A program made the translations under genes and the position numbers. Below are positions 25,621-28,339 of a stretch of DNA of 35,091 bases, piece after piece (within the stretch, counting starts at the first letter, position 1; each line of letters starts with the position of its first letter). Origin of the DNA: an uncultured Caulobacterales bacterium (GTDB taxonomy: Bacteria > Pseudomonadota > Alphaproteobacteria > Caulobacterales > Caulobacteraceae); assembly GCA_903851655.1 (NCBI GenBank), contig CAINOV010000139.1:1-35091 (forward strand), given 5' to 3'. Below the pieces are notes generated by a model, which did no database searches, had not been told where the DNA came from, and was given only the letters and a program-made list of their open reading frames with translations.

Positions 25621-26853
25621 TCAGCGGCGGGCCGCGGCCGTCTCCAGCAGGGCGTGGAAGGCCGCGAACAGCTTCTTCATCTGCGGGACCTTGTAGGGGT
25701 ACAGGTCCGGCTCATCCATGGAATGGACGATCATCGCCACGTCGGCCTCAAACAGCAACAGGCGGCCGTCCGCCGTCTCGCCGGCGTCCACGGCGAAATA
25801 GTCCAGGTCGATCCGCTGGTGAAGTTCCTCCAGCGCCGCCTTGTGGCGCACGGCGAAATCCGTGTCGAAGGCGGCCATGACTTCGGCCTCTTCGGCGCGC
25901 TTACCGGCGTCGTCGGCCATGCCGGAATTGAGATAATGGACCATCCAGTGTTCGGAGATCGCCAGGTGGCTGAGATAGGGAACGCCGCCGATCAGGGCGA
26001 TCCGATACTTGCGGTACAGTCCGTCGGCGCTGGCGTAGTCGATGAAGGGCGCCACGAAATACTCGAGAGCGTTCGAGCCCTTCAGGTAATCGCTCAGCGC
26101 CGCCGCATCCGGCGTGAGGGACAGCTCCTGTCCCGCCTGGGATCCCACGGGCCGGATGATCACCGGGAAATCCAGTCCGCCCCGGCCGAGGATCTCTCCC
26201 GCCCCGCCGCTGGCGAAGCGCAGGACCGCGTCCCGGTCCACCCGCACCGTGGGCGGGGCCAGCACCTTGTCGGAGCCCTCGAACAGGGCCGACACCGCGT
26301 CGCGCCCCAGATTGGCGATGGTCTCGACATTGCGGTTGAGCAGGGGCCGCGGCCAGACCTTGAGCATCGGCCTGAGGTTGCGCAGGATGGTGCGGGTGGC
26401 GTCGGACTCGCCGATGGCCACGAAGGCCACATCGTGCTCCGGCACCGGCGGCAGGGGCTCCCCCTCCCCCACATAGAGCTGGATCAGGCTGGCGGCGCTG
26501 CCCTCCAGCAGGAAATCCAGAGGCGTATTGGCCATGAAGTCGCCATGGGTGACGAAGGCCAGCAGCCGCAGCCCGTCCGGAGCGCCAGGGCGCACATAGA
26601 CCTTGTGCAGCGCGAGGGCGTGGCGCTGGGCGTCCAGCCCCTGGTCCTTGTTGCCGGTCAGCTGCAGCAGGATGCCCATGTCCATGAGGGCCGCCGCGTC
26701 GTAGGGATCCTTGCGGACCCGGCCCAGCAGACCCTCCCAGATCGGCTGGAGGTCGACACCGGCATAGGCGCCATGGGTCAGGGCCGCCAGGCCGATGACC
26801 TCCCGCGGGGCGTCGTCGGGAACGGCTGCGTCAGTTTCGGCTGGGCTGGTCAT
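25621..26853 (-). CDS. RimK-like ATP-grasp protein of unknown function with N-terminal helical (TPR-like) part
   Basis: A 410-residue cytoplasmic protein. Residues 20-100 are helical with a TPR-like look (YDAAALMDMGILLQLTGNKDQGLDAQRHAL). A pre-ATP-grasp region follows (RPLLNRNVETIANLGRD), then an ATP-grasp core: VLAPPTVRVDRD, FPVIIRPVGSQAGQ (nucleotide-binding lysine position occupied by Arg), YFVAPFIDY, YRKYRIALIGGVPYLSHLAIS, and the metal-binding end GRLLLFEADVAMIVHSMD. ATP-grasp ligases join a carboxylate to an amine through an acyl phosphate. I recall similar proteins in other alphaproteobacteria, all uncharacterised. The track start is 39 residues early; ATG 26853 has GGAAAGG upstream and overlaps the decarboxylase gene by 23 bp, so the two are surely co-transcribed. 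Substrates are unknown; an amine from the decarboxylase is a reasonable guess. Confidence 0.75.
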   Translation of the reverse strand: MTSPAETDAAVPDDAPREVIGLAALTHGAYAGVDLQPIWEGLLGRVRKDPYDAAALMDMGILLQLTGNKDQGLDAQRHALALHKVYVRPGAPDGLRLLAFVTHGDFMANTPLDFLLEGSAASLIQLYVGEGEPLPPVPEHDVAFVAIGESDATRTILRNLRPMLKVWPRPLLNRNVETIANLGRDAVSALFEGSDKVLAPPTVRVDRDAVLRFASGGAGEILGRGGLDFPVIIRPVGSQAGQELSLTPDAAALSDYLKGSNALEYFVAPFIDYASADGLYRKYRIALIGGVPYLSHLAISEHWMVHYLNSGMADDAGKRAEEAEVMAAFDTDFAVRHKAALEELHQRIDLDYFAVDAGETADGRLLLFEADVAMIVHSMDEPDLYPYKVPQMKKLFAAFHALLETAAARR

Positions 26854-28339
26854 GGGTCGCCTTTCCGGCCAGTTCGGCGCCCTCGAGGAGCGCGCCATCC
26901 ACCAGCGCATTGATATCCGAAAGGGTTGCGCGGGGATTAAACAGGGCGGCCCGCAACGCCACCTTGCCATCGATTCGCGTCAGCGACGGCGCGACCCGGC
27001 CCTTTATCTGCAAACGCCGGGCGATTCCTCGGTTCAGGTCGTCGAGGTCGGGCGCGGCGCCGCCGCTCGTCACGGGATCTGGCAGGTAGCGGAAGCAGAC
27101 AATGTTCAGGTCGGACGGGCCCAGCTGCTCCAGTCGCGTCTCGGCGGCGATCCGCGCCCGCAGGGCTGCGGCGAGGTCCAGCCCGGTGTCGATGGCCGCC
27201 CCGATCGCCTCCACCCCGCAGGTGCGCAGGATGAACCAGGTCTTCAGCGCCCGACAGCCCCGGGACAGGTCCGGCCCGTAGTCGGTGGGCCAGAAGTCGC
27301 CGGCGGCCAGCCCCTCCGGCTCCCGCGACAGATAGGCGGCAGGTGAGGCGAACACGTCGGTCAGCCGCGCGCCGTCGGCCACGATGATGAAGCCGGCGTC
27401 ATAGGGCACCTGCCCCCATTTGTGGAAGTCGAAGGCCACGGACTGGGCGCGGTCCAGTCCGGCGAGCTTCGGCCGCACCCGGGCCGAATGCACGCCCAGC
27501 GCGCCGAACGCCCCGTCCACATGGAGCCACAGCCCCCGCCGCTCGGCGAGGTCCGCCAGCATCGCCAGATCGTCAAAGGCGCCCACATCCACCGAACCGG
27601 CCGTGGCCGTGACCAGGAAGGGCTGCAGGCCGGCTTCGACGTCTGCCTGAATGAGGCTGTCCAGCGCCTTGATATCCATCTGGAAATCGGCGTTGAGCGG
27701 AACCAGCCTGAGAGCTTCGCGGCCCAGCCCCGCCATCTCCATGGCCCGGACGACGCAGGCATGGGCGCCCTGGGCGGCGTAGGCCGTCAGCCGGGCTGCG
27801 CCGACGCCGCTGGCCCGCGCCTCCGGCCCGAGCGCCCGGGACCGGGCGGCGAGACAGGCGGCGAAATTGGCCATCGACGCCCCAGTGACGAACAGGCCCC
27901 GGGCGGTGGCCGGGAAGCCGAACCAGTCCCGAGCCCACAGGCCGATCTGCTGCTCCAGGGCGATGCCCACATGGTCGCGCCCGCCGCAGTTCATGTTCAG
28001 CCCGGCGGCCAGCATCTCGGCCAGCGCCCCCACCGGCGCGCCGGCGCCCTGCACCCAGCCCATGAAGCCGGGATGGCGATTGCCGCCGGCATAGGGGGCG
28101 ACGGTCTCGAGATAGTCCGCATAGACCGCCTCCACCGGCTGGGGCGCGCCCAGCGCCTCGCTGCGGAAGGTCGCGCGCACCGCGTCCGGCATGGGCCGCC
28201 AGACCGGGCCGTCGCCCAGTCCCTGCAGCTGATCGACAAGGTCGTCCACCATCCGCCGGCCCAGGGCCCGGAACGCGTCCCAGTCCTCCGGATCAAAGGC
28301 GGAGGTCGGACCAGCGGACACGGGGGAGGATCGGGTCAT
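26831..28339 (-). CDS. PLP-dependent group II amino-acid decarboxylase
   Basis: A 502-residue pyridoxal-phosphate enzyme of the aromatic-L-amino-acid/glutamate decarboxylase group. The PLP lysine is K307 in DFHKWGQVPYD. The ring-stacking histidine is H193 (AAQGAHACVVRA) and the ring-nitrogen aspartate D275 (WLHVDGAFGAL). The N-terminal block HPGFMGWVQGAGAPVGALAEML and LEQQIGLWARDWFGF fit the family. It should turn an amino acid into its amine plus CO2; which one cannot be read, though the aromatic-type layout favours a bulky or aromatic substrate. The ATG at 28339 has GAGGG upstream. The gene is divergent from ccrM (119 bp apart) and overlaps the ATP-grasp gene by 23 bp. Confidence 0.88.
   Translation of the reverse strand: MTRSSPVSAGPTSAFDPEDWDAFRALGRRMVDDLVDQLQGLGDGPVWRPMPDAVRATFRSEALGAPQPVEAVYADYLETVAPYAGGNRHPGFMGWVQGAGAPVGALAEMLAAGLNMNCGGRDHVGIALEQQIGLWARDWFGFPATARGLFVTGASMANFAACLAARSRALGPEARASGVGAARLTAYAAQGAHACVVRAMEMAGLGREALRLVPLNADFQMDIKALDSLIQADVEAGLQPFLVTATAGSVDVGAFDDLAMLADLAERRGLWLHVDGAFGALGVHSARVRPKLAGLDRAQSVAFDFHKWGQVPYDAGFIIVADGARLTDVFASPAAYLSREPEGLAAGDFWPTDYGPDLSRGCRALKTWFILRTCGVEAIGAAIDTGLDLAAALRARIAAETRLEQLGPSDLNIVCFRYLPDPVTSGGAAPDLDDLNRGIARRLQIKGRVAPSLTRIDGKVALRAALFNPRATLSDINALVDGALLEGAELAGKATHDQPSRN

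Follow-up and report, generated by a model that had tools for sequence, protein, structure and literature searches.

The genes for a predicted ATP-grasp ligase (F0), a group-II PLP-dependent decarboxylase (F1) and a PLP fold-type-I protein (F2) are linked: they cluster recurrently, and they also co-occur where they are not neighbors. They make up a unit, probably one of PLP enzymes feeding an ATP-grasp ligase, that is more conserved than the earlier note on this DNA had supposed. F0 and F1 lie within the window, that is, the entire 35,091-nucleotide stretch analyzed, which is one whole contig of genome G000, a genome closest to Caulobacterales MAGs. The two genes overlap by 23 bp and are isolated from other metabolic genes, as that note described, with a CcrM-type DNA methylase gene on one side and the dcw-operon gene mraZ on the other (Table 1). 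The F0 gene is read from an ATG at 26853, which GGAAAGG precedes, to a stop at 25621; an alternative, longer in-frame start exists at 26970, and the orthologues support 26853 as the probable start. The original idea of a two-gene unit proved correct as to the pair but incomplete, since it missed F2, a variant with SerC and a C39-like fusion.

Table 1. Positions of the paired genes and their main features in the window, with the ligases that carry a C-terminal fusion at other loci
Feature	Position	Strand	Basis
F1: predicted group-II PLP-dependent amino-acid decarboxylase, 502 aa (P0002)	26831..28339	-	Pfam Pyridoxal_deC, 4obu, invariant catalytic residues
K307 codon, F1 Schiff-base lysine	27419..27421	-	DFHKW motif, 64/64 conserved
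F0: predicted TPR-fronted ATP-grasp ligase, 410 aa (P0001)	25621..26853	-	structure model, Foldseek
F0 reduced TPR-like helical front, residues 22-82	26608..26790	-	DSSP of model; profile match to consensus TPR proteins
F0 ATP-grasp core, residues 200-410; invariant R234, K282, R284, D356, E369	25624..26256	-	family conservation
F0 R234 codon, Arg at usual ATP-binding Lys position (IIRPVGS)	26152..26154	-	86/86 family + 11/11 paralogues
23-bp overlap, F1 3' end / F0 5' end	26831..26853	-	gene coordinates
C39-like C-terminal fusion to ATP-grasp ligase: L065, L072, L075, L078, L085, L091, L094, L104, L106, L132			

First, the linkage is evident from gene neighborhoods. Across 90 F0 family rows, a count that excludes ten paralogue rows and contains near relatives, hence not 90 independent events, F1 is local to F0 in 65, with F2 also present in 41 and missing in 24; here a partner is a gene within the retrieved stretch, and a contig edge cuts some of these stretches short. 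The other rows have F2 alone (3), SerC (5) or no recognised partner (17), several of the last coming from genomes without F1. Gene order varies by lineage, the arrangements A2D, DA and DA2 accounting for 24, 20 and 13 loci, respectively. The pair is thus borne out as a real functional unit by the 65 local occurrences, and the ligase is not usually found without the decarboxylase: F1 (>550 bits) is encoded elsewhere in 11 of 21 genomes that lack it locally, compared with 11/385 (~3%) of the class sample. In that sample, an even draw of 385 alphaproteobacterial genomes, F0 is uncommon, occurring in 12, and it is present in 8 of the 10 genomes with F1 at 600 bits or more (Fisher p 2e-12) and in 5 of the 6 with F2 (p 7e-8), both associations staying significant after the window's genus is dropped. 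In genome G372, F0, F1 and F2 are all present on three different contigs, and the window's own genome carries F2 on another contig (G000:C136, L131:5523-6998, minus strand). That F2 copy has kdp-like genes for potassium transport and sensing as neighbors.

Second, the ligase reaches no Pfam or NCBIfam family; its top NCBIfam model, CofF, scores 15 bits where 300 are required, and a RimK-type structure is matched by profile at E 0.23. Because its AlphaFold2 model (pLDDT 88) matches LysX/ArgX and D-Ala-D-Ala ligases (Ddl) in Foldseek (E 7e-13, probability 1.00), the ATP-grasp identity proposed in the earlier note is right as judged from the modelled fold. The same note's TPR-like front is supported by the match of the family profile to designed TPRs (E 1.7e-5), by the model helices assigned by DSSP and by the full TPR arrays of the paralogues; in the F0 subfamily itself no more than a few helices of it are left. 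Its observation of an Arg in place of the nucleotide-binding Lys also stood, and this residue, R234, being invariant in the family and its paralogues, characterizes that wider group and is no peculiarity of P0001. By motif, D356 and E369 are assigned to Mg binding and R234 and K282 to ATP binding, and all four are invariant in 86 members; because these ATP and Mg residues are kept, F0 likely performs ATP-dependent ligation. RimK, LysX-ArgX and CofF share the ATP-grasp fold and are the closest solved structures, but the resemblance is at fold level only (~16% identity), and F0 differs in its Arg for Lys, its TPR front and its PLP-enzyme partners.

The decarboxylase is more readily placed. P0002 belongs to Pfam Pyridoxal_deC (E 4.7e-55; 187 bits vs a curated cut-off of 27), in keeping with its first reading as a PLP decarboxylase, and its closest solved structure is the tryptophan decarboxylase of R. 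gnavus (4obu, E 2.4e-59). The catalytic H193, D275, H306 and K307 and the loop Tyr336 are invariant among 64 relatives, so that the Schiff-base Lys (K307), pyridine-N Asp (D275), stacking His (H193) and loop Tyr of group II are found in 64/64, and the loop position holds the Tyr of decarboxylases rather than the Phe of aldehyde synthases. Since every catalytic residue is kept, including this true-decarboxylase loop Tyr, F1 likely produces an amine. It has the group-II fold and catalytic residues of RgnTDC (4obu), DABA and DfoJ decarboxylases, but falls far under the cut-offs of the NCBIfam equivalogs for DABA decarboxylase (164 vs 900 bits), PanP (97 vs 606), MfnA (61 vs 299) and histidine decarboxylase, and has an invariant NxNxGGR motif of its own.

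The third component, F2, is a ~500-aa protein located near F0 in 44 loci. It has no Pfam family: Aminotran_5 scores 16.3 bits (cut-off 21.5) for one member and gives no match in two others. The class-V pattern is recognizable in a fold match, in the invariant D and Q of the DxxQ motif (here D-x-C-Q) and in the Lys of GSKF, and SGTD is likewise invariant. In Foldseek, its model, a confident one (pLDDT 91), is closest to C–S lyases, to NifS and to decarboxylases, with identities of 12-18%.

We infer from these components a two-to-three-gene biosynthetic cassette in which an amine is made and then coupled to a carboxylate with ATP, a reading to which we give about an even chance. F1, judging from its family and intact catalytic residues, would decarboxylate an amino acid to an amine, and F0, judging from its fold and conserved Mg/ATP residues, would convert a carboxylate to an acyl phosphate and join it to that amine, forming an amide. 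F2, encoded at about half of the loci, would act in the same pathway, either readying the amino acid or altering the product afterwards. It is the enzyme families that lead to the amide chemistry, and the step order is our proposed arrangement of them. Methanofuran synthesis offers a precedent: MfnA, a group-II PLP decarboxylase acting on tyrosine, makes the amine tyramine, and MfnD, an ATP-grasp ligase, joins it to the amino acid glutamate. By analogy with such pairs, and from the clustering, the F1 amine may be the F0 acceptor. The enzyme types are the same in the two systems, but F1 lies well under the MfnA cut-off and no MfnD model is among the F0 matches.

The cassette also has variants. 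In a beta/gamma subgroup (Sulfuricella, Rhodocyclaceae, Thiocystis, Allochromatium and a Paraburkholderia plasmid), the partner of F0 is a SerC-like transaminase, a phosphoserine aminotransferase of the PRK12462 clade that takes the place of F1 and F2. It differs from ordinary SerC in being a second copy: all four SerC-type genomes tested carry a further, canonical SerC separately (47-51% identical to the query SerC) and have no F1 and no F2, whereas five decarboxylase-type genomes have one SerC. Since this subgroup retains F0 without F1 or F2, F0 is not strictly dependent on the amine of F1. In the rhizobial branch, ten rhizobial and Hyphomicrobium F0 proteins bear a ~155-aa C-terminal domain with C39-like Q/C/H/D residues invariant in all 10, which scores under the Pfam Peptidase_C39 cut-off (12.2 vs 22 bits, E 0.16). 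This cysteine-hydrolase-like fusion would let the amide be cut again. Glutathionylspermidine synthetase/amidase likewise combines an amide-forming ATP-grasp enzyme and a cysteine hydrolase in one protein; the likeness is one of analogy, as that hydrolase is a CHAP and not a C39-like domain, and the rhizobial loci give no sign of polyamine or glutathione. Taken further, and tentatively, with somewhat less than even confidence, F1, F2 and the TPR-fronted ligase may define a patchy, undescribed pathway to a novel amide metabolite that forms reversibly; beta- and gammaproteobacteria would have a SerC version of it, and in rhizobia the ligase would include its own hydrolase. No characterised system of such make-up, and no paper combining these families, was found in the open-access literature searched. 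The proposal places two families that lack a Pfam model, one of ATP-grasp and one of PLP fold, in a functional setting, and the gene set is compact, has a testable product and occurs in culturable members of Rhizobium, Mesorhizobium, Hyphomicrobium and Massilia.

Third, the substrates can be considered, and serine/ethanolamine is one candidate axis, toward which the SerC and ethanolamine ammonia-lyase clues point weakly. Nothing in the analysis singled out glutamate for the gamma-glutamyl-type conjugate raised in the earlier note. Under this special case of serine/ethanolamine, F1 would decarboxylate serine (or phosphoserine) and F0 would make an amide of ethanolamine or its phosphate, while the F0 of the SerC subgroup would take (phospho)serine directly. 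The specialised second SerC adjoining F0 in the four genomes and on the one plasmid is consistent with it, as are Arg121 and Asn117 of F1, invariant at a place that alignment puts in the side-chain pocket. At locus L113, EutB and EutC follow in line directly after F0-F2, 25 bp past F2 (L113:8760-10914, plus strand), in a genome with F1 elsewhere, but this is a single occurrence among the loci and is missing from the sister locus L110. EutB is enriched, in 19 of 45 F0 genomes compared with 24 of 289 across the class (p 6e-8), a weak signal for which genome size and lineage are confounders, and genomes G003 and G005 of the window's genus have no EutB. The SerC genomes also lack F1. We regard this special case as unlikely.

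Alternatively, F0 may modify a protein or peptide in the manner of RimK/LysX tailing, the tag being the F1 amine or an unrelated amino acid. RimK and LysX are among its closest folds, the TPR front and the large TPR paralogues suggest macromolecular recognition (the long TPR arrays of the latter could mean a protein or peptide substrate), and the C39-like fusion would fit as well. This reading strikes us as rather unlikely, given that the TPR of the F0 subfamily has shrunk to a few helices, that its partners are small-molecule PLP enzymes and that no small ORF in the 900-bp flanks is conserved across genera as a precursor peptide gene would be. A RiPP or graspetide system was rejected, the small ORFs of the flanks being frame artefacts or the ligase's own N-terminus.

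A third possibility, that ligase, amidase and lyase make a thiol or sulfur metabolite by analogy with ergothioneine synthesis, takes F2 as a C–S lyase like Egt2/EgtE; the top Foldseek matches of its model are indeed ergothioneine C–S lyases, with NifS next, but the likeness is at fold level only and group-II decarboxylases score almost equally. F2 has no conserved C-terminal catalytic Cys, and no sulfoxide synthase or EgtD-like gene was recognised among the neighbors examined, leaving this possibility quite improbable. That the genes are chance neighbors without joint function, favored by nothing except those F0 loci where no partner was recognised, has next to no probability, as the pairing recurs in distant genera with reshuffled order and in genome-level co-occurrence.

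Returning to the amide-forming cassette, no further operon members recur, and the neighbors of the cassette and of distal F1 are mutually unrelated (transporters, LysR, SDR, HpcH/HpaI aldolase). One F1-family decarboxylase gene without F0 overlaps an HpcH/HpaI aldolase gene (L156:5530-9124, minus), which may reflect another use of the decarboxylase. A MerB (alkylmercury lyase)-family gene lies 12 bp downstream of one ligase (L032:9865-10560, plus; E 2e-21); as a shared partner it was rejected, its occurrences (L032/L061) coming from one genome and the equivalent position of L033 holding an SDR. A defence system was likewise rejected, PADLOC giving no match.

Finally, the family is widely spread, and the gene set recurs as a group in many bacteria of soil and freshwater. 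A scan of one genome per species yielded 363 F0 relatives, of which the best 80 were retrieved; among these are Rhizobium, Mesorhizobium, Hyphomicrobium, Massilia, Undibacterium, Gallionella, Methylococcaceae, Chromatiaceae and Acidobacteriota and Gemmatimonadota MAGs. The relatives in other alphaproteobacteria mentioned in the earlier note are present, but so are members in beta- and gammaproteobacteria and in those MAGs. All five other searched genomes of the window's genus have an F0 copy, adjoining mraZ with F1 alongside wherever contigs let the position be seen. A fully supported branch separates F0 from longer TPR-ATP-grasp paralogues, several of which occur in some genomes. Those at L037-L046, 500-700 aa long and several per genome in some Caulobacteraceae, have a C-terminal half without a family model, and the one at L038 adjoins an FkbH-like protein and a redoxin/2OG-Fe(II) oxygenase fusion. 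On a Cupriavidus plasmid, the ligase is split into two annotated ORFs (L134:7962-9211, plus), possibly a decaying gene. A divergent TPR-ATP-grasp protein at L036:8684-11640 (plus), 29% identical to P0001 and grouping with the paralogues, is paired in reverse order with a true F1 decarboxylase, possibly a second recruitment.
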